A stretch of DNA of 25,430 bases from a virus. Positions 9,266-24,361 of this stretch are shown here, in pieces. The stretch covers positions 1 through 25,430 of IMG/VR virus record IMGVR_UViG_3300012001_000105, one strand, 5' to 3'. How positions within the stretch are numbered: the stretch's first letter is position 1; each line of letters begins with the position of its first letter. The notes beneath the pieces were generated by a model, which was given only the letters and a program-made list of their open reading frames with translations, did not search any database and was not told the DNA's origin. A program made the translations under genes and the position numbers.

Positions 9266-12200
9266 TTAGCGGTTAACGAAGTTCCAGTAGAGCTCGCTTG
9301 CGGCCATCTGGCCGACCTGAGCCTCATTGAGGGGGGCGGATGGATATACATTCACCGTCGGTGTGATAACAGTGCCACTGGAGTTACGGCCTTGCTGCAT
9401 ACCTGCAGCAGCCGCAAACGGATCCACAGCCGTCCGTGTAGCAGGGTTGGCGAAGATATTAGGGTTGCCCTGAGCTCCGCTAGCTAGATTTACTGAGACA
9501 GTGGCGTTCATGGTGTCGGAGATAAGGTCAGTCACACCCGAGAGGGTCTTCTGGAGCCCTCCCATGGAGCCCTCGATACCCTTCTGAAGACCGCCCATGA
9601 TCCAGCCACCGTGAGGGACCAGCAGTGCGCGGTCATACTCTTCAGGCCCCTTGTGGTCGGCAATCCATTGGCCGATACCGCCGACCATGTCCTGCACGCC
9701 CTTGAACCCTGCCGTCAGGCTGCCAAGGAACCCGTCCATGATGGCCTGTCCGGCACGCTGCAGGATTGTGCCCGGGTCTCCAATGGCGTCCATGATTCGA
9801 CCACCGATTCCGGCAATCCATCCGACTACCCTTGCGATTCCGTCAGCCACCGCTTGGCCAGTGTTGTTCCACATATCAACAAACATGCCGACGGTATTGC
9901 TACCGAAATCTGCAAACATACCGATAGTTTGGTTGACCCAACCGCCCACGGATGCGATAAAGCCGTCAAGGAAGGCACGGGTTTCGCCTGTGGTCTGTGC
10001 GTAATACCCCACGAACATGCTGACTAGGCTGCTCACCCAGCCGGTGACCATGCCTATGGTGTTGCTGACGAAGTCATTCCACATTCCAACAGTATTAGTG
10101 AAGAAGTCTACAAACATCCCAATAGTGTTGCTGGCGAAGTCATTGAACATGCCGTTTGTTTGGGTGTTGAATTGAGACACGGTGTCAGGAAGATTCTTCG
10201 TGAAGAAGTCGGAGAACATGCCGAAGGTATGGTTGAAGAAGTCGTTGAACATGCCTTTGGTATTGTTATTGAAATCGTTGAGCATGCCCATGGTATTGAG
10301 GACGAACCTCGCAATGGCACCGGGCAGGTTTGTCCAGAAATCATTGAACATGCCGGTCGTGTTGTTGGCGAAATCCACGAACATACCGACTGTGTTTACG
10401 AAGAATCGAATAAGGTTGTTGCGGGCATCCACACCGAACTTAGTGATTTGAACGGCCATATCTACGGCCCACTTGATGACAGTATTGATTATGTCGTTTC
10501 GCCAGTTTTGGAAACCTGTTATCACGTCAATAAAGAATTTCATGATGTTGACAGCAGCACCGACTGCCCAGTTTCGGATGTTTGTGCTGACGTCGGTAAA
10601 GAATTTAGCGATATTAATGAGCACAGACATAGCCCAGTCAGTGATGGCTTTCTTGGTGCTATCTACAAACTTGTGGACCTCACCGATAGGGTCGTGGGCA
10701 AATCCCTTAAATCCTTCGACTACCTTATTAAAGAAATCTGTAAACATGCCGACGGTGTTGGTGAAGAAGTCTACAAACATACCTACAGTGCGAGTGCCCC
10801 AGTCCTTCACCATTCCTACGGTATTGTTGAAGAAATCAACGAACATGCCGACGCTGCGGGTCCCCCAGCCCACAATCATTCCAACAGTATTGTTGAAGAA
10901 ATCTACGAACATGCCTCCGGTGTTCTTAAAGAAGTCACCAAACATGCCCATAGTATTGTTGAAGAAATCGGTAAACATACCATTGGTATTTTTATTGAAG
11001 TCTTTGATCATGCTGCCGGTGCTATTGAAGAAGTCACCGAGGTTTTTACCTGCGTCATTGGCGAAGTCGGTTACGGCTTTGGAGACCGCGTCCCAGTTAG
11101 CGATAAGCAGGATTATTCCAGTGATCAAGGCTGCAATAGCGATAGCAATCAGGCCAATACCTGTCATTGCCAGTGCACCTGCAAACATCTCAGCGCCTAC
11201 ACTCGCCCCTTCAAATGCTGGGAGGAGTCCGAGAATGAACCCACCTATTGTCTGTGCAATCTCTAGGCCCTTAATAAGGCCGACCGCGATGCCTATCATG
11301 GAGTTGAAGATGACAACGGTGCCGATTACAAGTGCAAGAGCGCCAACAATTACGTCCCCCGCACCCTTTGAGTCAAGGAAGTGGTTTATCAGATCCAAAA
11401 TAGGGTTGAGGATTGGTTCGATTGCCTTGAAAAGTTTGTCAAAACCATCTAATAGCCCCGGAAGTACAGCCAAGACAACAGGTATGGCTTTGGCCCCGAT
11501 TTCGATGATCTTCTCGATAATCGGAGTAACATGGGTAATCAAATCACCTAAAATAGGTGCCAACTTGCTTATGGCATCGCCCATCGCGGCTGCCATCGGA
11601 GGCAGTGACTTGCCTGCGGCATCTGCTAAAGTCTTTATCGCAGGTAAGACTGACCCGGTGAGCAGTGCAATCAAGGGGGGGAATGCTGTTTTTACGAGAA
11701 TACCAATAGCTGGTGCCAGTGCATCAACAACTGCATTTGTAATATCACCGAGAGGCTGGATCAAGGGGACAATATCGGACAGCAGTGAAGCAACGAGCGG
11801 TAGGATTTGGATGACCGCGTTCGCGAACACACCACCGAGCGAGTCGGCAAGCTTTCCAATTACCGTAAAGAAGATGCCGAGTTTATCTCCTATAGGGCCA
11901 GTTGCTGTAGCGAAATGATTAAGTCCGAGGACAATTCCACCGAAAAGATCTTGAATACCCTTGAAGAGGGTGGGGTTACTGAGAATAGCACCGAAGAATG
12001 TGAGAACATTTCGAATAGCAATTCCTACGTCCTGCTCCACCACCTTCAGGGCAGGCGAGAGGTATCCAACACCCTTGAGGAAGTTACCGAGACCGGTTAC
12101 GGCGTCTTTCATCGCCAAGTTTGCACCACTGAATATATTTACAAGGGCTGTCTGGACTGCAGGCTCCCTTACTACGGCTGCGAAGCGCTCCATCGTGAGA

Positions 12201-13612
12201 CTGAGGATGCCCAGAGAGGCTCCGCCAGCGTCTACAGCAGCCTTCATGAGACCACCGATAACGTTGGAAGTGTTGACAATCACACCACCAAGATCCTTGA
12301 AGGCCTGTACACCGCCGTCCACCCACCGCTTCAGGGTTCCGTCTGCGTTGGCTTTCGTGAGGAAGGCATCGAATCGCTCAGAAACATTGAGGAAGCTCTG
12401 GGCCAGCTTCGGGAGGTAGGCAGAGCCGAATTCACCCAGTGTCTGGATGATATGTAGGAACGTCGTGGACCCATTAGTCGTGATCTCAATCGATTTTTTG
12501 AGGTTATCGAAGTCACCGGCCATTGCCGTGGCAAAGGTCCCCTTGGACATGCCCTCAAACATCGTGCCCCAGAAGGTGCCCAGTACGCCGGAGGTGCTGG
12601 CAAGTTCTGTGCGGAGAACGGAGGTAGGGCCGACAAGGGCCTGCAGCCCCGCACGAGCATTAGCCCAGAAGTCCTGACTGATCATGTCCTTAAGAGTTTG
12701 GAACTCCTTAGCGAGGTCAGGAACAGCTTTCTTCATGTCGCCAAAGGCAATCGTGGTCAGCTTCATTCCGATGACGAACCCGGTCAGTATTCCGGGCAAC
12801 GCAACAGCAACCCCGCCGAGTTGTACGATACTACTGGCGAGACTTAGGATATTGCCTGCGGCGAAGGACGCCCCGGTAGCCATGGCCCCGAACTTCTCCG
12901 CTGCAAGCGCTATTTGTGGTACCTCATTGCCAAGGTTGATCTTGAATCCGATGAGCTCCTTGGTAAGTTCAAGGAGGGCTCCGCCACCGCTGAGTCCGTC
13001 CAAGAACCTGCCGACATTCTTGCCAGAACTGCTGGCTTGTTCACCAGCGTTCTTCAGCGCTTGGCCGAAGAAAGTGAGCTTGAGATTCGCCTTATCCAGC
13101 TCTTTGCTGGTAGCGGACAGAGCGTTCTCGATCTCGCCGATGGGGCCTTTACCGTTACCAACAGAAACAGGAATGGTTATCGGCTTGAGTTTGGCTATCG
13201 CGTCCAGCTTGGCCCGGAGCGCCTCCATCTTGGTGATCGCCACAGCTTCATCAACGTCAACAGGTACGTCGATGTGATGCCCAGCTGCAGCGTCGATGAA
13301 CTCATCAACGTGTGCGTGTGCTGCGACGGTATCCGCGTCTATGTTGATGTGGGCTTCTTCGTGGTCGATAGTCTCGACCAGCGCCTCAATATGTGCTTCA
13401 GCCCCTAGGGTCTCCGCCGCGACGTTCACATCGATTGTGTGTATGTTACCCCACGCGACCAGTAGGTCGATTTGCGCTTCTGCAGCAGTTGTGTCAGCAT
13501 TGACATGTACATCAATGGTGTCCGGCAAAGTAGCCAGAGCCTTTTTGATGTCGGCTTCAAGGTGGTCGGTGATTGCACGGATGTCTACATACGCGGATCC
13601 AACTATTGTCAT
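9266..13612 (-). CDS. Tape measure protein, 1448 aa
   Basis: By far the largest gene, lying after the tail assembly chaperone and before Dit. The protein sets tail length and leads DNA into the cell. Residues 31-150 contain four degenerate 27-30-residue repeats of the type IDVxVxADT..AEAxID. Residues about 150-750 are long helical stretches. Hydrophobic segments lie around 262-285, 750-785 and 805-835 (IAIAIAALITGIILLIANW). Residues 862-1247 are 35 tandem 11-residue repeats ending in Phe/Trp. The C-terminal 200 residues are globular (GAQGNPNIF...). At 1.5 angstrom per helical residue a tail near 0.2 micrometre would be expected. Long plus-strand frames inside it are shadows of the repeats. 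Confidence 0.95.
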   Translation of the reverse strand: MTIVGSAYVDIRAITDHLEADIKKALATLPDTIDVHVNADTTAAEAQIDLLVAWGNIHTIDVNVAAETLGAEAHIEALVETIDHEEAHINIDADTVAAHAHVDEFIDAAAGHHIDVPVDVDEAVAITKMEALRAKLDAIAKLKPITIPVSVGNGKGPIGEIENALSATSKELDKANLKLTFFGQALKNAGEQASSSGKNVGRFLDGLSGGGALLELTKELIGFKINLGNEVPQIALAAEKFGAMATGASFAAGNILSLASSIVQLGGVAVALPGILTGFVIGMKLTTIAFGDMKKAVPDLAKEFQTLKDMISQDFWANARAGLQALVGPTSVLRTELASTSGVLGTFWGTMFEGMSKGTFATAMAGDFDNLKKSIEITTNGSTTFLHIIQTLGEFGSAYLPKLAQSFLNVSERFDAFLTKANADGTLKRWVDGGVQAFKDLGGVIVNTSNVIGGLMKAAVDAGGASLGILSLTMERFAAVVREPAVQTALVNIFSGANLAMKDAVTGLGNFLKGVGYLSPALKVVEQDVGIAIRNVLTFFGAILSNPTLFKGIQDLFGGIVLGLNHFATATGPIGDKLGIFFTVIGKLADSLGGVFANAVIQILPLVASLLSDIVPLIQPLGDITNAVVDALAPAIGILVKTAFPPLIALLTGSVLPAIKTLADAAGKSLPPMAAAMGDAISKLAPILGDLITHVTPIIEKIIEIGAKAIPVVLAVLPGLLDGFDKLFKAIEPILNPILDLINHFLDSKGAGDVIVGALALVIGTVVIFNSMIGIAVGLIKGLEIAQTIGGFILGLLPAFEGASVGAEMFAGALAMTGIGLIAIAIAALITGIILLIANWDAVSKAVTDFANDAGKNLGDFFNSTGSMIKDFNKNTNGMFTDFFNNTMGMFGDFFKNTGGMFVDFFNNTVGMIVGWGTRSVGMFVDFFNNTVGMVKDWGTRTVGMFVDFFTNTVGMFTDFFNKVVEGFKGFAHDPIGEVHKFVDSTKKAITDWAMSVLINIAKFFTDVSTNIRNWAVGAAVNIMKFFIDVITGFQNWRNDIINTVIKWAVDMAVQITKFGVDARNNLIRFFVNTVGMFVDFANNTTGMFNDFWTNLPGAIARFVLNTMGMLNDFNNNTKGMFNDFFNHTFGMFSDFFTKNLPDTVSQFNTQTNGMFNDFASNTIGMFVDFFTNTVGMWNDFVSNTIGMVTGWVSSLVSMFVGYYAQTTGETRAFLDGFIASVGGWVNQTIGMFADFGSNTVGMFVDMWNNTGQAVADGIARVVGWIAGIGGRIMDAIGDPGTILQRAGQAIMDGFLGSLTAGFKGVQDMVGGIGQWIADHKGPEEYDRALLVPHGGWIMGGLQKGIEGSMGGLQKTLSGVTDLISDTMNATVSVNLASGAQGNPNIFANPATRTAVDPFAAAAGMQQGRNSSGTVITPTVNVYPSAPLNEAQVGQMAASELYWNFVNR
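9872..11029 (-). repeat. Tandem 33-bp / 11-residue repeats in the tape measure gene
   Basis: Thirty-five units run from residue 862 to 1247 with only one 12-residue unit breaking register. The best-conserved units read FxNTVGMFVDF; the last position is Phe or Trp in nearly all. Units 10-19 are diverged but keep the terminal aromatic and the spacing. At DNA level a 33-bp period with recurring ATTGTTGAAGAAATC-like stretches is visible on the plus strand. Confidence 0.9.
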
Positions 13613-13628
13613 GCCCTACAACCTCACA

Positions 13629-14332
13629 CTAACCCATTGGGGGTTCAAGACCGGGAAATCCGTTCTCATCTGCTTCTAGATAGTTATGAGGTTGCACACC
13701 ACTCGATGATACGTAGTCATCGAAGTCTTCGTCGTTTGAACTATCCTCAGCCCTAATTTTACCATACAAGTTAGTAATAACTGCTTTCATCCTGTGCCGG
13801 GGATCATCAGTTGCGCCGTCACGAACGCTCTCATCGAGTATTACAGTATCAATAACATTGAAGGAACTTTCGGCGTTGAGCCTGCATAGCAGTCTATACA
13901 GGTCAACATTTTGTAGCCGATAGTATCCTTCAACCCAGCTCCAGATTGAAAGGAAGTGGCGTCCGACTGCTAGGACGCCTCGGAAGGGCGCGAGGTGTAG
14001 GATTCGATCACGTAGCCGACAACCTCGGAAATGGTTTTGATGTCGATCTTGTTCTTCGGATCGTGGAAAACAACATTCAATCGCTTCCACTCCTCGGGAG
14101 ACATGACCGACTTGAGGAAACGGGTCAGGGCCGCTGCATTCGCGCCCTTCTCTTCAGATGTCGTTGCCTCGATGAATTCAAGCAGGACAATACCCGGGGC
14201 TTCCGGGAGAACTTCGAAGCTTTCACCTGCAATATCAAACCCAAGAGGGGCGACAACGATATCTTTTGTCTCCTCACTCTCTGCGGGTGTGGTGAAGGAG
14301 CGAGTACGTACAGGAAGGCGAGTTTCAGCCAT
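13629..14332 (-). CDS. Tail assembly chaperone, long form made by -1 frameshift
   Basis: Between the connector genes and the tape measure there are two overlapping frames, the arrangement of lambda G/G-T. The downstream frame (true coding from about 13990 to 13629) has no good start of its own; upstream of 13990 it is nonsense. A -1 shift before the TAG at 13972-13970 joins ...YVIESYTSRP to ...RGVLAVGRHFLSIWSWVEGY. The best slip region is TCG CGC CCT TCC at 13993-13982, though it is not a textbook heptamer. The joined product is about 234 residues. These proteins bind the tape measure during tail assembly. Confidence 0.75.
13970..14332 (-). CDS. Tail assembly chaperone, short form, 120 aa
   Basis: Starts at ATG 14332 (MAETRLPVRTRSFTTPAE). 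The sequence is acidic and mostly helical after residue 40, with LLEFIEATTSEEKGANAAALTRFLKSVMSPEEWKRL in the middle, a very typical pattern of siphophage gpG-like chaperones ('...sv.t..e...fl..vl..ee..rf..l..d'). It ends at TAG 13972-13970, overlapping the long-form frame. Both forms are normally needed for tail assembly and are not found in the virion. Confidence 0.85.
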   Translation of the reverse strand: MAETRLPVRTRSFTTPAESEETKDIVVAPLGFDIAGESFEVLPEAPGIVLLEFIEATTSEEKGANAAALTRFLKSVMSPEEWKRLNVVFHDPKNKIDIKTISEVVGYVIESYTSRPSEAS

Positions 14333-14354
14333 GTGTCTTTCCTAATTTCGTCAG

Positions 14355-14738
14355 TTATTCAATAACTTTGTTCAAGTTATCCGTCAAATATCGGTTGGGC
14401 TTTGTGCCCGGATGATGCACTATCTTGGCATATACAATTTTACCATGGCTTGCAAACCGTAGTGTCTTTTTTGTATGCGGAAGAATGATGTGCGGCTTGG
14501 TTCCCTCGTGGTGTAGATAGGCGATAGGATTGTCAGCGCCTATGACGCCAATAACGCCTTGGTGGTCTGCAGAAAGCGTGTATCCAATTGCTGTAGACAG
14601 CTGTCCAGTCTTTTTACCGACCTGTATCTTGGCCAGAAGAGTGAGGATGGCACTTCGGTTTCGGATATCCTGACCGACCATGCCGGTAGTAGTCTCGAAT
14701 TCCTCGTGCCAGCCAGCCTCATTCTTCTCAAACTTCAT
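14355..14738 (-). CDS. HK97 gp10-like neck / head-tail joining protein, 127 aa
   Basis: Starts at ATG 14738 (MKFEKNEAGWHEEFETTTGM). Residues 65-127 contain GADNPIAYLHHEGTKPHIILPH and IVYAKIVHHPGTKPNRYLTD, the repeated 'HEGTkPH / HPGTkPn.yl' pattern characteristic of the HK97 gp10 / phage minor capsid-neck family. The N-terminal half is helical. Length is normal for the family. It stands two bases after its upstream neighbour's stop. Confidence 0.85.
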   Translation of the reverse strand: MKFEKNEAGWHEEFETTTGMVGQDIRNRSAILTLLAKIQVGKKTGQLSTAIGYTLSADHQGVIGVIGADNPIAYLHHEGTKPHIILPHTKKTLRFASHGKIVYAKIVHHPGTKPNRYLTDNLNKVIE

Positions 14739-14739
14739 G

Positions 14740-15228
14740 CTAAATAACCAGCATCAGGTTCATGGTGACAGCTTGAAGCAGGCCACTGGGCATGCTGGCA
14801 GTAACATCCGCAATGCCGGACTGCTCCCATGCGTCCTCGAAGGATCTGCGTCCAGCCTCAATGAGGAGCTGGGCGTCCTGCATCTGGCTTATGGCCGTCG
14901 CACTGACTACGTCATCACTAGGTTCTGTACCTCTGGGCGTCATGCCCGGGAGGTCACGTACTACCTCGACAACAAAGACAGCTGTCCAAGGTTGGGTCCG
15001 CTTCACAGGAAACTGTGACTGGTGCTGAGGCAGACCGGAGTATGCCTGAGCCCAAGACACAGTGACCTGCGCGGAGCCGTGTACTGTCTGTCCCTGACCA
15101 CCGATGGCAAGGAACTGTCGAGTAGGGAGGCCCACATTGTTCTCGGTGAAGACCTCGTTTACCTTGGCAAGGATCAGCTGAGCCTTCTCAGAGATTCCGT
15201 CAAGATATACAGGGGCATCGAACGACAT
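14740..15228 (-). CDS. Tail terminator-like protein, 162 aa
   Basis: Starts at ATG 15228 (MSFDAPVYLDGISEKAQLIL). An N-terminal helix is followed by beta strands (TVHGSAQVTVSWAQAYSGLP; QPWTAVFVVEVVRDLPG) and a helix-rich stretch (QMQDAQLLIEAGRRSFEDAW), ending in a strand (LLQAVTMNLMLVI). This alpha-beta-beta-alpha-beta order and the length fit tail terminator / head closure proteins, which cap the tail tube and join it to the neck. Position beside the gp10-like gene agrees. Assignment is by layout and context. Confidence 0.65.
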   Translation of the reverse strand: MSFDAPVYLDGISEKAQLILAKVNEVFTENNVGLPTRQFLAIGGQGQTVHGSAQVTVSWAQAYSGLPQHQSQFPVKRTQPWTAVFVVEVVRDLPGMTPRGTEPSDDVVSATAISQMQDAQLLIEAGRRSFEDAWEQSGIADVTASMPSGLLQAVTMNLMLVI

Positions 15229-15236
15229 GGGATTCC

Positions 15237-15506
15237 TTAGATAGTTTTGAGGGTCTTGATGAGGGACTTGCGCTTGAGTCCGGCCTCTTCAGCAGCGAGA
15301 GCTCGTGCTGCACGCTCTGCGTCTGTGCCGACCCATTCAACGATCTCCGAAATGGTCCCTTCCGGTACAGCTTCCTCGGTCTCCGGGACAGCTGCATCTT
15401 CGACAGGCGCGGTCTCTACCGCTGCTTCAGCTTCCTTGAGCACTTCTACCGGGGGGTAGTAGACGTTCGGCGCGGCTGGATCTGCATAGGGGTCTGTATC
15501 GCTCAA
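15237..15506 (-). CDS. Small acidic head-tail region protein, 89 aa
   Basis: Starts at ATG 15506, overlapping the end of the adaptor gene by four bases (ATGA-type). Residues 1-48 are acidic, Ala/Pro/Val-rich and disordered. Residues 50-89 (TISEIVEWVGTDAERAARAL then EEAGLKRKSLIKTL) form a small helical domain common at the ends of actinophage structural proteins. Role unknown; perhaps a linker or decoration piece of the connector. Confidence 0.65.
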   Translation of the reverse strand: MSDTDPYADPAAPNVYYPPVEVLKEAEAAVETAPVEDAAVPETEEAVPEGTISEIVEWVGTDAERAARALAAEEAGLKRKSLIKTLKTI

Positions 15507-16192
15507 TTTATTCTCTCTCCACGTGGTTTATCGACCGAGAAGACTCTCGACTTCTTTTTCGCTTTATTCGGGTTGACAGCGGCGAGGAAGAGATCGACCT
15601 CATATACGCCTGTACGGCCAGCCTGAAGAAAGTTTAGGGGGTCAAGGACGGTCATGCTCTCGCCTTGACGGGTAATCTGGGTTGTGATCCGCTGAGGCAG
15701 TGAGCACTCAGTGGAGTCGTTAGCAGCCCAGATAAGCTCATTGGCTAGACGCAACGCTGCGCGTTTTCCTGCGGCTGGGATGGGGGTTCCATATGTATAC
15801 GAAACAGTCAGGTCATAGAGAGGGTCTAGGATCCACGGAACGGAATTGGCCCGGACGAGATAGGCGTTGTTCCGTAATGTATACTCTGTGGACGCCATGA
15901 CCGATCCGGCATGAATCACAGACTGTACTGACACAACAGGGGAGTTTCGCAGTCGAAGCTCACGCAGACCAGCCTGAAGTGGGATATTCCTAACATCACC
16001 CTGCAGTACGACAGGTTCAAGCTTCATCGGGCTGTAAATACCAGAACCGTAGCTCTCAGTGGTCTTCTGAACACCAGTGAATTTCTCGCCGGATAGTTTA
16101 TAGAGAATGAGGCTGGCAGTGGCAATGGCGTCGGTTGTATATACACCAGACGGTGCGACAGTATCCGAGGACTTGAGCCATAGAATAGCCAT
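15503..16192 (-). CDS. Head-tail adaptor (gp6/connector-like), 229 aa
   Basis: Starts at ATG 16192 with GGGAG upstream. Residues 10-60 are helical (DAIATASLILYKLSGEKFTG), a beta-rich middle follows (LRELRLRNSPVVSVQSVIHA ... EYTLRNNAYLVRANSVPW), then YDLTVSYTYGTPIPAAGKRA with the helix ALRLANELIWAAN. This matches the HK97 gp6-like adaptor family, which binds below the portal. A promoter-like element and a terminator hairpin lie in the 98-base gap before it, so it may begin a sub-operon. Confidence 0.75.
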   Translation of the reverse strand: MAILWLKSSDTVAPSGVYTTDAIATASLILYKLSGEKFTGVQKTTESYGSGIYSPMKLEPVVLQGDVRNIPLQAGLRELRLRNSPVVSVQSVIHAGSVMASTEYTLRNNAYLVRANSVPWILDPLYDLTVSYTYGTPIPAAGKRAALRLANELIWAANDSTECSLPQRITTQITRQGESMTVLDPLNFLQAGRTGVYEVDLFLAAVNPNKAKKKSRVFSVDKPRGERIN

Positions 16193-16216
16193 AATGCTCC
16201 CAAAGTTATTTGTTCT

Positions 16217-16227
16217 AGTATATCATG
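16217..16227 (-). promoter_or_regulatory. Possible extended -10 promoter for the connector genes
   Basis: The minus strand reads CATGATATACT, with TGATATACT resembling an extended -10 (TGnTATAAT). It sits 25 bases before the ATG at 16192, just after a terminator hairpin. The same 11 bases occur upstream of the scaffold gene at 20140-20150. No -35 is evident. Confidence 0.4.
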
Positions 16228-16238
16228 GGTACAAACAC

Positions 16239-16273
16239 TTCTGGCTGGTCCGAATAAACCGAACCAGCCAGAA
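16239..16273 (-). terminator. Probable terminator after the tail tube gene
   Basis: TTCTGGCTGGT at 16239-16249 pairs perfectly with ACCAGCCAGAA at 16263-16273, and the stem continues inwards with one mismatch. It lies 18 bases after the stop of the highly expressed tail tube gene. On the minus strand it is followed by GTGTTTGT, a weak T-rich tail. Confidence 0.6.
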
Positions 16274-16290
16274 TTGATGATGCAAGATAA

Positions 16291-16941
16291 TTAAGGGGTT
16301 GTTGCGACGTAGCCTGAGCCACCGGATGGGATTGCCGGGATGGACGCCGTGCGAGCATAAGCATACGCACGGTCAGTGATCCACGGCCATGTAGGTGTGT
16401 TGCCGGACCCGAGTCCGAAGAGGGGGTTTCCTACGCCATACCCTGAGAATTCGGTTCCTAGAACACCTTCAGCAATGGTCTTGTCGCCGCTTCCCTGCAT
16501 GATGGTGTAGGGTAGGAGCCAGTGCCAGTAAGGGTTTACAGCTGCTGGGCGACCGTTGAGAATGGCCTTGGACCAGACCTCAATGGACACGCCGTTCGGT
16601 GTAGCGTTCTCGCCGATGTTTGCTGCGGCGTAACCCTGAGAAGCCCCAAGAATCACACCTCCAGAAATCATTTCGGTGAGTTCCGGGTCAGGGTTCTCGA
16701 CGCCAAGCGTGAGGTTGACGCGCTTGAGTGTGTTGGGGGTCTTGTAGGCGATACCGATGGTACCGTCCGCAAGCTTGGTTGTGATGTCGGTTCCTGCTTC
16801 AAACTCCGGAGTAATCTTGACGGAGATGAATGCGCGGGTAACGAATGATGCGCTTGGGCCTTGAGCCGTGGAGCCATCCGCGTTGAGGCGGGTGACACGA
16901 ATTACGGAGCCCGAAATGCTGGCGCTTTTATCGTAAGCCAT
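16291..16941 (-). CDS. Major tail (tube) protein, 216 aa
   Basis: Starts at ATG 16941 (MAYDKSASISGSVIRVTRLN). Residues 35-110 carry the tail tube pattern: AFISVKITPEFEAGTDITTK, GIAYKTPNTLKRVNLTLGVE, then DPELTEMISGGVIL, close to the 'dpel.elltG' motif in many siphophage tube proteins. The C-terminal half has a Trp/Tyr-rich region (NPYWHWLLPYTIMQGSGDKT). Its place between the capsid and the adaptor, rather than next to the chaperone, is unusual; a strong terminator follows it, as expected for an abundant product. Confidence 0.7.
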   Translation of the reverse strand: MAYDKSASISGSVIRVTRLNADGSTAQGPSASFVTRAFISVKITPEFEAGTDITTKLADGTIGIAYKTPNTLKRVNLTLGVENPDPELTEMISGGVILGASQGYAAANIGENATPNGVSIEVWSKAILNGRPAAVNPYWHWLLPYTIMQGSGDKTIAEGVLGTEFSGYGVGNPLFGLGSGNTPTWPWITDRAYAYARTASIPAIPSGGSGYVATTP

Positions 16942-16960
16942 TGTGAATCCTTCCTAAAAT

Positions 16961-17827
16961 TTAGGCGTAGTCTAGTGATAGATCGATAAGTACTGCATAG
17001 ACGTTTGTGGTGGACCATGTGACAGCTGCTGGACGGTCGACGTAATACTTGATAGTGTTTACACGAGTATCAACAGCCTGAGATACCTCACCGGGGGTCA
17101 CATTCATGTCGCCAAGGATGACCGTCACCGGCCCTGTGGCATACAGCCAGTACTGGTTGGTACCGGCTGCGATGCCTGAAGGACCGAGCTTGGAGTATCC
17201 TGTACCTGCTACAACTGTGTTCCCTAGCTTGGTGAAGAGTGCGTTCTTATCTTCTTCAAGCTTCAGGATCCCAGCCACTGCGCGAGGTGCATGGATCGTT
17301 CCGACAGAGCCGATGGTCGCATTGCCCAGAGCACCTTCGAGAAGAGCCTGCCCATAGCGCGGCTTGACAGCCGTTCCCGGGGTAGGTGTTACATCGATTG
17401 TGCTGGTGCTGGCAAGGTAGCGGTTGTCGTTAGTCTCCGTGAGGAGCTTCGCGATACCGCCGCCCCAGAACTCGGTTTCGATAGCCTTCTGAGAGACGAT
17501 GTCCAGAGCCTTTTTGGCGCTTTCTTCAATCTCGTCAGGGGTGACGCCGAAAGTCGAGTGTTCGACTTCAGCTTCAATATCGAAAGGGAAGTATTTGCCA
17601 AAGGTCTCACCGGTATTTGGAACAATACTGACGATTTCAGCGGGTGTGGTAGCACCCATAATCACAGCGTTGTCTACCTTGACTCTGGCATCCCCGATTT
17701 CGTAGTCGAAACCGGCGAGCCAGTAGTCATCATGACGTTCTATAACAGTAGTAGCTGGACTCAAAATCCCAAACGGAGAAGCCTCTGGTCCGGTCGTCTC
17801 AATAAGAGTGTTTGTCGGTCTTACCAT
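16961..17827 (-). CDS. Capsid-region structural protein, 288 aa
   Basis: Starts at ATG 17827 with GGAGA six bases upstream. It has VDNAVIMGATTPAEIVSIVP, a helical segment (DEIEESAKKALDIVSQKAIE), then GALGNATIGSVGTIHAPRAV and TNQYWLYATGPVTVILGDMN. The order 'short beta, helix, ...GtIHap..., ...Wly.TGPV.v' recurs in actinophage proteins encoded directly after the capsid gene; these are usually just called structural or minor capsid. No membrane segment. It may be a second capsid-lattice or head-decoration protein; I cannot name it. Confidence 0.6.
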   Translation of the reverse strand: MVRPTNTLIETTGPEASPFGILSPATTVIERHDDYWLAGFDYEIGDARVKVDNAVIMGATTPAEIVSIVPNTGETFGKYFPFDIEAEVEHSTFGVTPDEIEESAKKALDIVSQKAIETEFWGGGIAKLLTETNDNRYLASTSTIDVTPTPGTAVKPRYGQALLEGALGNATIGSVGTIHAPRAVAGILKLEEDKNALFTKLGNTVVAGTGYSKLGPSGIAAGTNQYWLYATGPVTVILGDMNVTPGEVSQAVDTRVNTIKYYVDRPAAVTWSTTNVYAVLIDLSLDYA

Positions 17828-17879
17828 TTTATTTCTCCGTTGGAATTTCGAGTCCAGCTACTGTTACTTTGTTGATCTA

Positions 17880-19004
17880 CTACGGGGAGACTACGGTCGT
17901 AGTTGCGGAAGCGGATCCCTTGAGTGCCAGTGCGCTTGTGACGCGTAGGGACTCGACGCCGACCTTTGCAACGCCTTCGAAGGTCTCAAGGAAGATCTTG
18001 TAGTCGTTGGTGCCGTTGAGGGTGGAGTCGCGCACGAGGCCGAGGTCCAGAGTTCCTGCATCGAGGAAGAGGAACGTACCTTCGGAGAAGAGGTACCAAA
18101 CAACTGTTGTTGGGAATGCAAGGAGCACATCGTTGTTGTTCTGTGTGCCGAAGATCTGGCCTGTCTCGCCATCGATGTGCCATGACACGTTGATGGAGCG
18201 AGTGGAGAACCAAGCGTTGATTTCAGCCTCTGCGAGGTTGAAGGTTCCTTCGCGTCCGTCGCCCGGGAGCTGCTTGATCAGGTCGGCACGAAGTGCGTTC
18301 TTGAACCAAGTCGGGAAGATAACGCGCAGTGGTGCGTTCTCGTCCAGACGGTAGCGGGAGCGGTACGCTGCTGCGGCGCGGTCAAGCTGGCCGAAGATGT
18401 CGCGTGCGGCACCAAGCTCTGCAGCGGCTGTGACCTGTGTAGACAGGGCACCGATGCGGGTGAGCAGGCGGGTCTCGGCGTAACGTGCGTGCCAGACCAT
18501 ACCAAGCTTGGTGTGGCGCTCTACGAGCTCCGGGTATGCGCGAGCTCCGAGGTTACCGAAGGTCAGGCAGAGAGGGATCGCGTCTACGTAGACGACGATT
18601 TCTGTACCAGCTGCAACGCGGATACACGGCTTGACCGGGTCCGGTGCGCCAGCGGTGGATGCGTCGATGTCATCCTGCAGGGTCCACAGGGAGACAGAGC
18701 CGTTGAGGTCCGTAAGGAGCGGTGGAGTCATGAAGCGGATACCGCCACGGTCAGCACCGAAGACGGCGAGTGCGTCCTTGACTGGGCGGTCAAGTGTCTC
18801 ACCGAGTTCGAAGATGTCGTAGGAGGTCTCCACAGGTGCGGTCAGACCACCGGCAGCGGTGATGGCTTCAGCGGAAACAACGCTTTCAACCTTGGCGCGG
18901 TTGCCTTCGAAGTCCGAGGAGTTGAGGAAACGAGCCTCAGGGAAGTCCGTCTTGAAGGAAGCGACGAGCGACTGCTCTCCGTCTCCACCAGAGGTCTTGC
19001 CCAT
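17880..19004 (-). CDS. Major capsid protein, C-terminal shell domain, 374 aa
   Basis: The frame read from ATG 19004 begins MGKTSGGDGEQSLVASFKTD and spans an HK97-type shell protein: N-terminal arm, EAITAAGGLTAPVETSYDIF, DRGGIRFMTPPLLTDLNGSV, TKLGMVWHARYAETRLLTRI (spine-helix region), a long helix (GAARDIFGQLDRAAAAYRSR), LRVIFPTWFKNALRADLIKQ, and a C-terminal beta part. There is no ribosome site before 19004, and the frame continues in sense upstream as LERKKS. Together with the preceding gene it reads as one 714-residue protein after a +1 shift at 19022-19023. Standalone translation of this part looks unlikely. Confidence 0.9.
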   Translation of the reverse strand: MGKTSGGDGEQSLVASFKTDFPEARFLNSSDFEGNRAKVESVVSAEAITAAGGLTAPVETSYDIFELGETLDRPVKDALAVFGADRGGIRFMTPPLLTDLNGSVSLWTLQDDIDASTAGAPDPVKPCIRVAAGTEIVVYVDAIPLCLTFGNLGARAYPELVERHTKLGMVWHARYAETRLLTRIGALSTQVTAAAELGAARDIFGQLDRAAAAYRSRYRLDENAPLRVIFPTWFKNALRADLIKQLPGDGREGTFNLAEAEINAWFSTRSINVSWHIDGETGQIFGTQNNNDVLLAFPTTVVWYLFSEGTFLFLDAGTLDLGLVRDSTLNGTNDYKIFLETFEGVAKVGVESLRVTSALALKGSASATTTVVSP

Positions 19005-19015
19005 GGACTTCTTGC

Positions 19016-19029
19016 GCTCAAGGAAGAGC
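19016..19029 (-). other. Candidate +1 frameshift site joining scaffold and capsid
   Basis: The scaffold frame ends GCT CTT CCT TGA (19029-19018). Reading CTT GAG instead, one base on, continues as LERKKSMGKTSGG. A proline CCT before a TGA can slip to CTT, as at known CCC/CUU-UGA +1 sites. A single extra C is the plain alternative. Confidence 0.5.
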
Positions 19030-20025
19030 AGAAGCCACAGCGGCGATGTCGGGAAGCTGGCTTCCCATTGGGATGCCCTTGATGTCAGCGCCAGCGGTAA
19101 TTGTTACCGGGGCAGACACACGAGCGGTAGTTGGGGCAAGAGCTGCCGGAGCTTGGAATTCAAGCCCTTCTGGAGTTGCTGAGGCAGTCACGGTATCCTC
19201 TTTCTGGATTTCGTCCGATGCGAGTTCAGCATCGGTAGTTTCTGGGGCTGTTGCAGCTAGCTCGGCGGCATCGTCTGCGGGTACTTCTTCGGTTGCTGCT
19301 TCTGACTCTTTAGGTGCATCTTCAACAGTTGGATCTTCGTCGGCGGCAAGACTTGCAATCTTCTTCTTGTCTTCGTCGGTTAGATCCGGTTCAGCATCTG
19401 CGTTGTCCGTTTCGTCGCCGCCACCAGCTGCATCGTCATCAACGGACGGGTCCGCTGCTGGTGCATCTGTGGGGGTTTCGGGTGCGGCGTCAGGTGCAGG
19501 CGTAGCCTCATCAGTAACTGCAGCGGGGGCATCCTCCGGAGCGGCTTCGTCATCCTTCGCAGGAGCGGCGATGGCGGCGGCTGTGGGGTCTTCCACAGGT
19601 GCCTCATCCTCTGCTACTGGAGGCTGCTCGGCAGCTTCAGTCGGGTCCTCAGGGTCCACAGTGGCGTCCGGTGTTTCGGCGTCCTCTGCAGTGCCAGCAG
19701 GTGCTTCAGTATCGTCGGTGTCCGGCTCTCCGTTGCCCTCTGGGTCAACGTCACCATCTCCGTCGTCATCCGTGTCCTTGCTCATGCGGGCAACTGCGTC
19801 AGCAGCAGCCTGTGCAAGTTGTGCGGATTCGGCGCTACGGCTCTCGCGTTCGGAACGGACTGCGTCCGCTGCGTCTGCAAGAGCGATCATGTTGGTTACA
19901 ACTTCGCGAGTCGGGTCTTGCGATTGAACCGTTTTGAACTCTGATACAACAGAGTTTTCTAGTGCGTCGAGCTCGTCATCCGAAAGGTCGGAGATTTTGT
20001 CTAGGCTTTCACGGATCTGATCCAC
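19018..20025 (-). CDS. Acidic scaffold domain of the capsid precursor, 335 aa
   Basis: Starts at GTG 20025 with a strong AAGGAGGG five bases upstream. Residues 1-85 are helical (SLDKISDLSDDELDALENSV; MIALADAADAVRSERESRSA), about 86-275 are an extreme Asp/Glu/Ala/Pro low-complexity stretch, and 285-335 return to ordered sequence (VSAPVTITAGADIKGIPMGS). A helical acidic pre-domain fused to the capsid, removed on maturation, is the standard role of HK97 delta-like domains. No serine protease motif is visible, so a separate prohead protease or none is expected. It ends two codons into the junction with the capsid; see the frameshift site. Confidence 0.8.
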   Translation of the reverse strand: MDQIRESLDKISDLSDDELDALENSVVSEFKTVQSQDPTREVVTNMIALADAADAVRSERESRSAESAQLAQAAADAVARMSKDTDDDGDGDVDPEGNGEPDTDDTEAPAGTAEDAETPDATVDPEDPTEAAEQPPVAEDEAPVEDPTAAAIAAPAKDDEAAPEDAPAAVTDEATPAPDAAPETPTDAPAADPSVDDDAAGGGDETDNADAEPDLTDEDKKKIASLAADEDPTVEDAPKESEAATEEVPADDAAELAATAPETTDAELASDEIQKEDTVTASATPEGLEFQAPAALAPTTARVSAPVTITAGADIKGIPMGSQLPDIAAVASALP

Positions 20026-20052
20026 AGGGTCCCTCCTTAGATTTCATTTAGA

Positions 20053-20070
20053 GATAAGCAATTGCTTATC
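20053..20070. promoter_or_regulatory. Perfect 18-bp palindrome upstream of the scaffold gene
   Basis: GATAAGCAATTGCTTATC is fully self-complementary. It lies 28 bases before the GTG at 20025 in the only long gap (20026-20174) of the head operon. It could be a repressor operator, or a 7-bp stem with AATT loop in the leader. A weak -10-like TATACA adjoins it at 20072-20077. Confidence 0.5.
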
Positions 20071-20139
20071 GTGTATAAATTCAGTCTCTATGGCAGCAAG
20101 GGCAGGATCATCGTGTGATTTGCGCTCAGTATTGTTACA

Positions 20140-20150
20140 AGTATATCATG
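20140..20150 (-). promoter_or_regulatory. Possible extended -10 promoter for the head operon
   Basis: The minus strand reads CATGATATACT, identical to 16217-16227. It would start a leader of about 108 bases before the scaffold GTG, containing the palindrome at 20053-20070. No -35 is apparent; a run of six T's lies just upstream. Confidence 0.4.
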
Positions 20151-20174
20151 CAAAAAAGTAGGTGTGTATGCTAG

Positions 20175-20840
20175 CTAGGCAGCTTGGGTGGTAATTATTA
20201 TCGGTTCTAGGGTACGGTCCTTGGGGTAGGGTATCAGCGGATATTTCAAGGCCGCTATCAGGTTGCTGCGCCGTTTACCCTTGGCATTAATGTAAATATA
20301 TCGGTGCTTTCGGGGGCGGGCACGTAAAGTGAATCGGTCACCATAGAGATCTCTAAGCTCTTGAGCGGTATACTTGTCTGCGATTGTCTGGGAGTGCTTG
20401 TCCAACCCTTCAACAACCCAGTCCGTCCGTTTGGCGCTGAGGCCCGAGTAGAGCCAGTTTGTGGCCTGATATACAGTGCCTAGATGTCCGTGGGAGGTAT
20501 CTGCGTATGAGACGATGATCTCTTTATCGACAAGCTTCAATGTGTTGCCGATGAGGTATGATTCCCCATTTTTAGGGACGATGTCGTCTACCCAAAGCCG
20601 GGTCAGCTCTATGACGTTGTGGGTATGCTCATCCCCAGCTATCCCTCTCCGCAGCGGTGCGGAACTGGGTGTCCCGTAGCAGATTACTCCATGGAGTAGA
20701 TCACCCTTGAAGAGCCCGAAGGCGAAGGAGCACGGGGCCTTTCGATGAAGATAGTGATTTCTTACGACTATGTCCATGGCTTCTTTATAGTCTATCGGTT
20801 TTATCTGCCAGTCGGACTTCTGAAGTCGTTGTTCTGTCAC
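20175..20840 (-). CDS. Mom-like DNA modification protein, 221 aa
   Basis: Starts at GTG 20840 with AGGA five bases upstream. It shows the features of the phage Mu Mom family (GNAT-fold enzymes that modify adenine and protect DNA from restriction): NHYLHRKAPC at 28-37, GVICYGTPSS at 51-60, ELTRLWVDDIVPKNGESYLI at 79-97, and SYADTSHGHLGTVYQATNWL at 111-130. The C-terminal 50 residues are basic (RARPRKHRYIYINAKGKRRS), consistent with DNA binding. Length matches the family. It has its own near-consensus promoter at 20867-20895 and is the first gene of the unit leading into the head genes. The exact modified base cannot be read from sequence. Confidence 0.85.
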   Translation of the reverse strand: MTEQRLQKSDWQIKPIDYKEAMDIVVRNHYLHRKAPCSFAFGLFKGDLLHGVICYGTPSSAPLRRGIAGDEHTHNVIELTRLWVDDIVPKNGESYLIGNTLKLVDKEIIVSYADTSHGHLGTVYQATNWLYSGLSAKRTDWVVEGLDKHSQTIADKYTAQELRDLYGDRFTLRARPRKHRYIYINAKGKRRSNLIAALKYPLIPYPKDRTLEPIIITTQAA

Positions 20841-20866
20841 GTTTATCCTAAGCGTAGTTTGTCTAG

Positions 20867-20895
20867 AGTATACAGTTTACCGCGTTAAATGTCAA
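20867..20895 (-). promoter_or_regulatory. Near-consensus sigma-70-type promoter before the Mom-like gene
   Basis: On the minus strand TTGACA (20895-20890) is separated by exactly 17 bases from TATACT (20872-20867). Transcription would begin around 20860, 20 bases before the GTG at 20840. The -35 begins on the last base of the preceding terminator stem. Confidence 0.8.
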
Positions 20896-20924
20896 AGAGC
20901 CCCGAACGGTTGTTCGAGGCTCTT
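20895..20924 (-). terminator. Intrinsic terminator after the integrase
   Basis: AAGAGCCCCGAAC (20895-20907) pairs with GTTCGAGGCTCTT (20912-20924) with one mismatch and a 4-base loop. On the minus strand it is followed by TTTGACATTT. It lies 17 bases after the integrase stop and insulates it from the late genes. Confidence 0.8.
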
Positions 20925-20940
20925 CTCTAAACACTGTTGA

Positions 20941-21915
20941 CTATGCTGCCCCTGCAAGGAAGGCACTTACCACGTGCACTGCATGTCGATCATGGTTATG
21001 TCTCGCACGATCATAGCGAGATGTAGTTCTTGGGTCTGAGTGCCGTGCGGCGATCTGTGCATCTCGGAGGGGTGCACCAGCGTCTAAACATGCAGTAACG
21101 AAAGAGTGCCGTAGAGAGTGTGGGCTTATTTTCTTCGTGATGTTTGCTGCTTTACAGAGCCGGTTGACGGCTAGCGCAGCCGATTTACGATTCATGGGTA
21201 GGCCTGATTTTCGACGTAGCAGCAGATAACCTGTTGTGCGATCACCAGCTGCTGCATCCAACGCTCGGATAACCGGGACGGGCAGTGGGATTGTCGCGGG
21301 TTTCCCACCCTTACCGACGAGTCGTAGTACACGGTGCCCACGCTCAATCGATTGATAATCCTCGATCATGACATTACAGGCCTCAGAGACTCTGAGGCCC
21401 AGCATACCCATTAGCGTGATCAATGCTCCGTCTGATGGGCATGAAGCTCGGGCAGTCTGGATGAGGCTTCCTAGCTCCATCCGGTCGAGCCCCAGTGTTC
21501 TAGACTCATCACGGTAAATCCTAGGCATACGCAGATGCGTTGCTGGGGACTTATCGATGTAGTCATCTATCTCTGCGAAAGAATAGAAGCCACGAACAAT
21601 GGATATGTGGTGGGCCACTGTAGATGCACTGTTGCCTCGTACCTCTTCGAGGTGTCTTGCAAACAACTCCAGAATCGGACGTCTCATTCCGACTAAAACT
21701 TCTACACCATTAGATGCGCACCAATCCCAGAGGATCTTCAGCGTGACGCGATAAGTTTCGCGGGTGCCACCCCGGTATCTCGCAAGATATCCGGCAGCAG
21801 CGAGTTCAGCCGTAGTCACCGTCCCTGCCTTAGGTAGGCCAGCGATCAAGGCGTTGTTCATTCCGAGCTCCATATCTAGGTAGGTCAGTGCGACTGTAGA
21901 TATACAGTCGTCCAC
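20941..21915 (-). CDS. int: Tyrosine site-specific recombinase (phage integrase), 324 aa
   Basis: GTG start at 21915 with a perfect AAGGAGG six bases upstream. Residues about 35-120 form the SAM-like core-binding domain (YRVTLKILWDWCASNGVEVL ... VRGFYSFAEI). The catalytic domain has R175 (GLRVSEA), K202 or K205 (GKGGK), H266 and R269 (HSLRH), H292 (ARHSD) and Y301 (SRYDR), so all active-site residues are present. The length and lack of an extended N-terminal arm-binding domain resemble XerC/D-like and small phage integrases. Repeat copy 2 lies about 40 bp before its start. It is transcribed with the phage strand and closed by its own terminator. It most likely mediates lysogeny or recombination between the repeats. 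Confidence 0.95.
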   Translation of the reverse strand: MDDCISTVALTYLDMELGMNNALIAGLPKAGTVTTAELAAAGYLARYRGGTRETYRVTLKILWDWCASNGVEVLVGMRRPILELFARHLEEVRGNSASTVAHHISIVRGFYSFAEIDDYIDKSPATHLRMPRIYRDESRTLGLDRMELGSLIQTARASCPSDGALITLMGMLGLRVSEACNVMIEDYQSIERGHRVLRLVGKGGKPATIPLPVPVIRALDAAAGDRTTGYLLLRRKSGLPMNRKSAALAVNRLCKAANITKKISPHSLRHSFVTACLDAGAPLRDAQIAARHSDPRTTSRYDRARHNHDRHAVHVVSAFLAGAA

Positions 21916-21953
21916 TCCTGACCTCCTTAGAGTACCTCCGACTCCCCAGAGAA

Positions 21954-21995
21954 CCTAATCGAGTGGGGCACTTAACCGGTCTTATTGGCCCCTAG
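21954..21995. repeat. Direct repeat copy 2, next to the integrase
   Basis: Copy of 361-403 in the same orientation. It contains the stop codon (21994-21992) of the glycine-rich fibre and ends about 40 bp before the integrase start. GGGGC (21965-21969) can pair with GCCCC (21988-21992); copy 1 can form AGGG/CCCT at the same place. Placement is what is expected of a phage attachment core. Confidence 0.65.
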
Positions 21996-24361
21996 AGGAA
22001 GTGGGCTCGGACTAGCAGGTATCCGCCGATCCCGTCGCCACCGGCACCGGAAGCGCTGCCGTTCAGGGATGCACCGCCACCGCCACCACCAACCCCATAC
22101 ATGAGAGGTATTGCCCCGGCTTGCGCTGCCCCAGTGATTGATCCGGCACCGCCTCCTACACCGGGTCCGGGGACACCAGCCACGGAAGTGGTTATGGTGA
22201 TCGCAGAAATGTCGATACCAACACCGGGAGCAGCGCCGCCAACCACACCAGCCGTCCCGCCCGTGTACCCACGAACCAGGTTCGAACCGCCTGCACCACC
22301 ATTAGTCGCGGCGGGAACTGTAGTCACGCCGCCGCCACCGCCAGAACCGGGAGTCCCGAGGTTTGCTGTGATCTGCGCTCCGTTGGACCCTACCGCGCCG
22401 TTGCTTCCGGATGCCGAGCCAGGGTTAGCGAACGGCCCGCCTGCGCCGCCCGCCGCTCCTGTGGTCGCACCGGTCCCACCGCCGCCACCGCCAGAACCGG
22501 CCAGTGCCTGGTAGGCGGCCATGATCGTGCCGCCTGCGCTGCTGGTCGTGAACTTGCTGAGCGTCCCGCCGGTACCAGCATTGCCGCTGGCGGTCGCAGA
22601 GATAGAGGCGCCGCCAACGCCTTTTCGCCCGATGACGCCCTGCCACGTAGCGCCGATAGCTGAGGCTGGGATGATTTCGCGGATGATGCCGGCCGAACCT
22701 CCCGCGCCGCCGCCGTTACCTGCGGTCCCAGAGATCGTGCAGCAGCCCGAGCCACCGCCGCCGGAGCCTCCGATGGCAACGACTTCAAGGTACTTTGTGC
22801 CGGGTGGTACGGACCCGCCAACGGTGATGTCAGCCCCTGTGATGTTGGTGCCGTCTTGGAGCGTCTGCGGGTTCAGTGAGGTGATTTGCGTGACGAGATC
22901 AGGCTTCGTGATGCTAGGCGTATCGGTGTGCGAGCGGAAGTTATCGGCCGCGATTTTGCCGTAGGCCGCCGGGGTGTCGATGGCGCCGATGTTGTTTTCG
23001 AACAGCTCCCAGACCGCATAGGTGGATGTCCACAGGTTGATTCCGGGGTCAGTGAAGTACCCGGAGTTCGTCCCGTCCGGGAAGAAAATGATTCCCTGAG
23101 CGGTTTCCGGGAACAGCCACACGTCGAGCGGCTTGAGCGTTCCATCCCATACGGTTGCATACCGGCCATGGGTGGCGTAGTCGGCGTAGTCAGTCACGCC
23201 CCCGGCCGTACCGCCCGTCCCTTGGTAGGGGGTAACGGTCGGTGCGGGAGTGCCGGCGCTGGCAGAGACTGCCATAGTGACCGCGCCGAGGGAGGAAGCC
23301 CAGACGACGCCGTACTTGCCTGCGAACGGGCCGACAACGGTAACGTCCCCCGCGCCGACGTTTGATAGCCCTTCCAGTGCGACTTTCAGAGTCGCCGCGG
23401 TCATAGACGAAATGGACAGGGCCGCCGTAGCCTGCGTGCTGCTGGGGGTGGTCGTTGTGACCTGGAGCGTAACGCTAGTCCCGCTGTTGATGTCGAGCCG
23501 GTGGGCTTCGACGTGACCGGCCTGTCCCGCCGCAGGGTTCCACACACCGCACGTCCATTGCCCGTTGCCGTAGTGCGTGGAGTGAAAGCCCGCCACCGGG
23601 AGGACGCCAGCAGACTGGTTCCATTGGGCGGAGGGTACGACGAACGCCGCGGCACCCAGGGCGTTGGCCGGCCAAGCAACTTTGGCGAACATACGGCGAA
23701 CCTTGTCGCTGGTTACTTGAGTTTGGAGGTATCCGGCGTTACTGGAACCGATGGTCGAGCCTGGGGTGTGGACCATCTGGCCGCCGCTGTATCGCAACGG
23801 GTTCTGTCCGACGTTGTTGACTACCTGTTGGCCGGAGTCCAACACATTCCCTGCGCTGATGGCTCCGTCAGCCTTGCCGATCGGCTCGTGGAAGATCTGT
23901 GCCCGCTGACCAACTTTGGTCTGAGCCAAAGGCTCAGATGAGCTGGCATAAGTGGCATTTAGTGCCGTATCTTGGAGCCGCGTGGGGAGGCGTGCGTCGG
24001 CCACCGTGCCGGCCGCCAGAAGGGACGCGTCGGTGGTCGCCGGGCCTGGAGGGCCGGGCACGGTGGAGGCCGGTCCGGTGGGCCCCGCGATGGGTGTGGT
24101 GGTGGTCAGGATGAACACCTGGGTGCCGGACTTGAACGCGCACTGGGTGCGGTCCACGAGGGTGAAGTCGGGGAACATGCCGTTCGCGTCCGAGATCAGC
24201 GTGGTTGTGACCGTGTTCGTGGCAACGAGGGTCAGGTTCAGCGGGGTCAAAAACCCGGTGTCGCCGATGTCGTAGACGGAGCCGGTCGCGGACTTCGCCA
24301 CACTCGCGGGGTTCGTGTTGGGGTTGAACGCGGGTAGCCGCGAAAAGGCGTAGACGGTCAC
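21992..24361 (-). CDS. Glycine-rich tail fibre / receptor-binding protein, 789 aa
   Basis: GTG start at 24361 after AGGAG. Residues 1-90 form an N-terminal module (LPAFNPNTNPASVAKSATGS) often used by actinophage fibres for attachment. A short collagen-like stretch (GPTGPASTVPGPPGPA) is at 93-108. A beta-rich middle (130-500) includes an SGNH/lectin-like sandwich and SMTAATLKVALEGLSNVGAG. From about 525 to the end it is a glycine-rich domain with runs such as GGSGGGGSG and AGNGGGAGG, as in phage adhesins whose polyglycine sandwich reads the receptor. Its stop lies in repeat copy 2. The gene is much richer in GC than the integrase beside it. Confidence 0.85.
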   Translation of the reverse strand: MTVYAFSRLPAFNPNTNPASVAKSATGSVYDIGDTGFLTPLNLTLVATNTVTTTLISDANGMFPDFTLVDRTQCAFKSGTQVFILTTTTPIAGPTGPASTVPGPPGPATTDASLLAAGTVADARLPTRLQDTALNATYASSSEPLAQTKVGQRAQIFHEPIGKADGAISAGNVLDSGQQVVNNVGQNPLRYSGGQMVHTPGSTIGSSNAGYLQTQVTSDKVRRMFAKVAWPANALGAAAFVVPSAQWNQSAGVLPVAGFHSTHYGNGQWTCGVWNPAAGQAGHVEAHRLDINSGTSVTLQVTTTTPSSTQATAALSISSMTAATLKVALEGLSNVGAGDVTVVGPFAGKYGVVWASSLGAVTMAVSASAGTPAPTVTPYQGTGGTAGGVTDYADYATHGRYATVWDGTLKPLDVWLFPETAQGIIFFPDGTNSGYFTDPGINLWTSTYAVWELFENNIGAIDTPAAYGKIAADNFRSHTDTPSITKPDLVTQITSLNPQTLQDGTNITGADITVGGSVPPGTKYLEVVAIGGSGGGGSGCCTISGTAGNGGGAGGSAGIIREIIPASAIGATWQGVIGRKGVGGASISATASGNAGTGGTLSKFTTSSAGGTIMAAYQALAGSGGGGGGTGATTGAAGGAGGPFANPGSASGSNGAVGSNGAQITANLGTPGSGGGGGVTTVPAATNGGAGGSNLVRGYTGGTAGVVGGAAPGVGIDISAITITTSVAGVPGPGVGGGAGSITGAAQAGAIPLMYGVGGGGGGASLNGSASGAGGDGIGGYLLVRAHFL

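Follow-up and report, generated by a model that had tools for sequence, protein, structure and literature searches.

In many other phages the scaffold and the capsid protein are encoded by separate genes, and in phage lambda the scaffold Nu3 is made from an in-frame start inside the C gene. Closer to the locus considered here are HK97 and D3, in which the scaffold forms part of the capsid protein (PMC10275583, PMC12749128); in D3, it is described as a coiled-coil tower, a linker, and a region associated with the P-domain (PMC12749128). According to excerpts of other reports, the scaffold of KS10 is embedded in frame in the protease gene (PMC2628397), lambda and P2 make protease and scaffold from one gene (PMC8508860), and in Listeria phage PSA the genes cps and tsh are read with a +1 shift at the proline codon CCC (PMC5009743). 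Embedded in-frame starts are thus known for phage protease/scaffold genes. In the open-access literature (subscription papers lay outside the search), we found no description of an internal start in a scaffold-capsid gene, or of a capsid protein embedded in one; queries on lambda Nu3 and on the Racecar group likewise yielded nothing relevant.

We have analyzed a stretch of viral DNA of 25,430 nucleotides (IMG/VR record IMGVR_UViG_3300012001_000105), referred to below as the window, which carries the scaffold-major capsid gene of an actinobacteriophage-type tailed virus. A first-pass annotation had proposed that scaffold and capsid are one protein, split by a programmed +1 shift at CTT CCT TGA. 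We favor, with a probability of about 0.8, a different reading: the gene would be one open reading frame (ORF) broken by a single-base insertion rather than by recoding, with a second start at codon 279, and its two products would co-assemble, their balance setting the number of scaffolds.

Results

Scaffold and Capsid Frames in the Window

Both frames lie on the minus strand, one base out of phase, as the first-pass annotation had described (Table 1). The scaffold ORF runs from GTG 20025-20023 to TGA 19020-19018 and encodes an acidic protein of 335 residues that ends in ASALP before the stop, and the capsid ORF runs from ATG 19004 to 17880 (374 residues). PHROG 777 (major head protein, 580 positions) matched the scaffold ORF weakly (profile 5-179, E = 2e-4) and the capsid ORF strongly (profile 245-575, E = 3e-67). 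The annotation was also right that the capsid frame has no ribosome site: there is no Shine-Dalgarno-like sequence before ATG 19004, and the site that is present, AAGGAGGG, precedes the upstream GTG. We rejected separate translation of the 374-residue ORF from 19004, which is without a ribosome site and whose ATG is an internal codon in relatives. Upstream of this ATG, the capsid frame translates as LFLERKKS. The hexamer CCTTGA is common, with 31 copies in the window when both strands are counted.

Table 1. Features of the scaffold-capsid locus (window coordinates)
Feature	Position	Strand	Basis or remark
Scaffold-capsid gene	17880..20025	-	Split in the window into 335 + 374 aa; PHROG 777 matches both halves
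Shine-Dalgarno AAGGAGGG before the long start (GTG 20025-20023)	20031..20038	-	Similar in relatives
N-terminal scaffold domain, residues 1-86, predicted helical	19768..20025	-	L016 model, pLDDT ~83-91 over residues 1-80
Acidic linker, residues 87-278, predicted mostly disordered	19192..19767	-	L016 model and sequence
GAGG, Shine-Dalgarno-like, 5 nt before GTG 19191-19189	19197..19200	-	Weaker than the GGAGG of many relatives
Conserved putative internal start GTG, residue 279 (V/M-T-A-S)	19189..19191	-	Alignment of relatives
Frame break CTT CCT TGA	19018..19026	-	Single extra base relative to L016 aligns at 19024
Predicted HK97-fold capsid domain, ~residues 373-699 of 714	17928..18908	-	Model of L016 residues 279-714

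Relatives Carry the Gene in a Single Frame

The nearest relative is a contig from another metagenome (L016/L040; L016 is IMGVR_UViG_3300039109_000038), all 9,866 bases of which were compared with the window. It matches positions 14306-22231 except for one base, 19024. Without that base, scaffold and capsid form a plain ORF of exactly 714 residues with no stop, i.e., the precursor length that the first-pass annotation had predicted, and LERKKS is continuous with the scaffold end ASAL, as it had noted, the L016 sequence reading ASALLERKKSMGK in a single frame.

A search of IMG/VR gave 24 relatives, two of which (L038 and L039) begin past the junction; in all of the 22 that span it the junction is in frame, four being truncated further upstream by the start of the contig. 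The same holds for 14 of 14 named phages (Racecar, Atuin, Mimi, Talia1610, DSL-LC01, Big4, Pumpernickel, Zooman, Cece, A3Wally, GMA2, Sixama, Forza, and Phendrix), each with a single annotated, stop-free coding sequence (CDS) of 550-678 residues. These were taken from the 25 best matches, from which duplicate records of a phage and close relatives (H15, H18, H19, H22, and others) were left out. The frame-split arrangement was therefore seen in none of the 22 contigs or the 14 named phages, and in all seven distant family members that we considered (Hendrix, phiSAJS1, Mutzi, Lilbeanie, Vincenzo, Squash, and Thora) scaffold and capsid also lie in one CDS. The exact junction of the window has zero matches elsewhere in viral_contigs, so that the CTT CCT TGA context is conserved in no other contig there; the intact junction occurs once, in the L016/L040 contig. 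Thus, the part of the earlier proposal that makes scaffold and capsid one protein is upheld, while slippage at CCT before TGA is contradicted by relatives that are plainly fused in frame, including the copy differing by one base.

At the junction, the alleles are GCTCTCCTT in L016, GCTCTTCTT in L017, and GCTCTTCCTT in the window (in longer context, GCTCTCCTTGAG, GCTCTTCTTGAG, and GCTCTTCCTTGAG, respectively). The bases in the window resemble the L016 and L017 alleles merged, which would fit an assembly error. Another contig, L209, has an independent frame break elsewhere in its scaffold-capsid gene, so breaks of this sort do occur in these data. A one-base indel introduced during assembly or sequencing is the most likely cause of the break in this contig, a fresh null mutation being less likely.

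Codon 279 Is GTG or ATG in All Relatives Scored

When 36 intact fusions were aligned, codon 279 was GTG in 31 and ATG in 5. GTG accounts for 136 of the 1,681 valine codons (8%) in these ORFs, and among 35 valine-rich columns only codon 279 and the annotated start were mostly GTG. Two further profile scans (the best 80 of 472 and the best 80 of 251 matches, i.e., 160 loci) yielded 128 distinct loci. Seven were too short, ending before the site, and one (L144), overlooked by the script and read singly, has GTG at codon 279. The 120 scored by the script, from the best 80 of 472 and the best 80 of 251, had 99 GTG, 21 ATG, and nothing else. Combining them with 30 of the first 36 (six near-duplicates being left out) gave 150 rows, and removal of six duplicate pairs left 144. 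All 144 distinct rows, the scan rows coming from the best 80 matches of each scan, had either GTG (123) or ATG (21), although elsewhere in the same rows GTG makes up 638 of 7,357 valine codons (8.7%).

Among 48 V/M-rich columns of the 150-row alignment, codon 279 alone was 100% GTG (122/122, plus 26 methionines, with two further rows gap-shifted at this column). The annotated start followed with 119/123 (97%), then a column with 89/135, the rest of those listed being at 38% or less. Alignment column 936 is 66% GTG. There were at least three GTG/ATG changes on a tree of the capsids, and the codon is kept across 33 clusters at 80% amino-acid identity. For an exchange limited to GTG and ATG, a start codon is the only explanation known to us, and this pattern of conservation points to codon 279 of the intact gene as an additional, in-frame site of translation initiation.

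Only one of the seven distant members, Gordonia phage Lilbeanie (L221), has a start at a like place, i.e., an ATG at capsid residue 184 with AGGAG. The feature would therefore be a property of the branch around the capsid of the window (about 40% identity and above) and not of PHROG 777 as a whole.

Ribosome-Site Evidence Upstream of Codon 279

GGAGG, AGGAG, or GAGG was found 4-16 nt upstream of codon 279 in 118 of the 144 rows, again with the best 80 matches of each scan; GMA2 was the one row of 144 with none of the motifs tried. Synonymous codon conservation in five-codon windows just upstream of the site was 0.63-0.64, ranking second to third along 589 columns, compared with a mean of 0.17 and with 0.57 at the main start. 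This supports a start at codon 279 but is not unique to it, other five-codon windows being as high, with the top at column 1370. Duplex energy at the site fell in the best 5% of positions of the same ORF in 73% of the 150 rows. However, against synonymous shuffles the median percentile was 0.34, with 11% in the best 10%, and energies were worse than the shuffles in L016, L017, L019, and the Microbacterium phages. Probably, the energies fail against the shuffles because the glutamate-rich protein itself makes GAGGAA. Given this mixed result, we set aside Shine-Dalgarno strength as the main proof of an internal start.

Predicted Products of the Two Starts

An AlphaFold model of the 714-residue protein was poor (mean pLDDT 43.5), being confident only for residues 1-86, with 87-303 mostly disordered, and was used only for residues 1-86 and the disorder of the linker, inside which codon 279 is predicted to fall. 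A model of residues 279-714, built with 59 sequences, had a mean pLDDT of 72.7 and resembled HK97 Head I (Z = 15.1, rmsd 9.7 Å, 262 residues aligned) and Head II (Z = 14.8, rmsd 5.4 Å, 242 aligned). The predicted match to the HK97 fold spans about residues 95-421 of the short form, ahead of which are about 95 residues with one predicted helix at 49-64. A profile search of solved structures gave no match at an E value of 0.01. As modeled, the 436-residue product would retain the HK97-fold domain but lack both the acidic linker and the helical scaffold domain. By analogy with D3, from which we infer the assignment, the short form would be without tower and linker but still have the shell-proximal region.

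Genes Around the Locus

Just upstream of the capsid gene (20175-21915), the window has a Mom-like DNA modification gene and a tyrosine integrase gene (20941-21915) where relatives have the capsid protease. A protease gene lies beside the capsid gene in L041, L044, and L046; in the window, itself a fragment of 25 kb, none was found. Within the tail-like gene 21992-24361, starting at 22232, about 25% of positions differ between L040 and the window (compared over 22232-24172), which would reflect recent recombination or a chimeric contig. ORF 21992-24361, which has a minor-tail-protein match, adjoins the integrase gene. A 40-nt direct repeat (83%) at 373-412 and 21965-22004 covers the 3' ends of ORFs 400-1011 and 21992-24361; 11 stretches of viral_contigs contain its core, and it is a possible recombination site for tail cassettes.

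Two overlapping ORFs at 13629-14332 occupy roughly the position of the tail assembly chaperone in Racecar, and in L041 and L044 the overlapping sequence surrounding the first stop shows strong conservation. This putative programmed frameshifting site is more credible, judged from sequence, than the break in the capsid gene. The tape-measure-like gene (9266-13612) has many copies of a 33-nt periodic repeat at 10016-11032. A search for the host in genome_contigs gave 28 pattern matches, none of them a relative.

Discussion

As with the Delta domain of HK97 and D3, the scaffold here is covalently N-terminal to an HK97-fold capsid protein, and would comprise a coiled-coil, a linker, and a segment near the capsid (PMC10275583, PMC12749128); HK97 is itself among the best fold matches of the modeled capsid. 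Unlike in HK97 and D3, the scaffold part has about three times the length and includes a long acidic linker, and there is a conserved second start that would give a mostly scaffold-less capsid protein, of which the excerpts of those two papers describe no counterpart. KS10, lambda C/Nu3, and P2 resemble this locus, in the accounts we drew on, in that a second product comes from an in-frame start within a head gene, but there the short product is the scaffold and the long one the protease, whereas the shorter product of this locus would be a capsid protein. The Arthrobacter phages Racecar, Mimi, Talia1610, and Atuin share with the window a homologous fused gene, an approximately 80% identical capsid, and the same internal GTG. 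They differ from it in that their gene is in frame and annotated from the long start only, and in having a protease gene directly upstream, in place of the Mom-like and integrase genes.

How should the break in the window be read? Two ORFs offset by +1, the first with a proline codon ahead of its stop, are what might be expected if the ribosome were programmed to shift at CTT CCT TGA, yielding a scaffold-only protein and a fusion, and PSA does shift +1 at proline codons; however, the PSA sites known from the excerpted report are CCC, not CCU, while the window has CCT TGA (PMC5009743). Moreover, every relative spanning the junction is in frame, and one differs by only a single base over 7,926 positions, making programmed shifting here highly improbable. 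The extra base might alternatively be real, the capsid gene of a defective prophage or dying variant having been inactivated recently, as the presence of a tyrosine integrase on the same contig could suggest. Yet there is no further difference from the intact copy over 14306-22231, a lethal variant would not be expected to dominate the consensus, and bases that look like merged L016 and L017 alleles would rather fit an assembly error. We regard inactivation as unlikely, although it is the least improbable of the alternatives considered.

With respect to codon 279, it could be kept as the valine or methionine of a protease cleavage motif (V/M-T-A-S) and not as a start; distant members without the start do keep similar motifs (VLAS in Mutzi, VVAS in Hendrix, TATAS in phiSAJS1). 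Such a motif would, however, allow GTT, GTC, and GTA, which account for more than 91% of valine codons at other positions, yet here every one of the 123 valines is GTG and methionine is the sole other residue. There is thus only a slim chance that cleavage alone explains the codon, although the two roles may coexist. Slightly less probable still is that the start is an unused relic of a separate capsid gene that became fused to a scaffold gene, an origin that the frequency of separate genes in other phages would make plausible. An unused codon should drift, whereas this one is kept in all 33 clusters, and there is synonymous constraint just upstream of it.

If codon 279 is a second start in an intact gene, ribosomes loading at the strong upstream site would make the 714-residue precursor, consisting of helical scaffold, acidic linker, and capsid, while those starting at codon 279 would make a 436-residue capsid protein with about 95 residues before the HK97-fold domain. 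The two forms would co-assemble, and the maturation protease would trim both to one shell protein. The balance of the two starts would set the count of scaffold domains filling the procapsid, the internal start lowering the ratio of scaffold to capsid.

A one-base error in a contig can mimic recoding, and comparison with relatives both removes such a misleading signal and brings out the genuine one. A fused scaffold alone would fix the dose at one per capsid subunit; the conserved second start would let the phage set the ratio, a point relevant to the assembly of large shells by phages whose genomes are about 190 kb long. The chances are about even that a widespread group of actinobacterial-type phages builds its shell from two precursors of one gene, with and without scaffold, and that the strength of the internal start determines the dose of scaffold and perhaps also how large the procapsid becomes.
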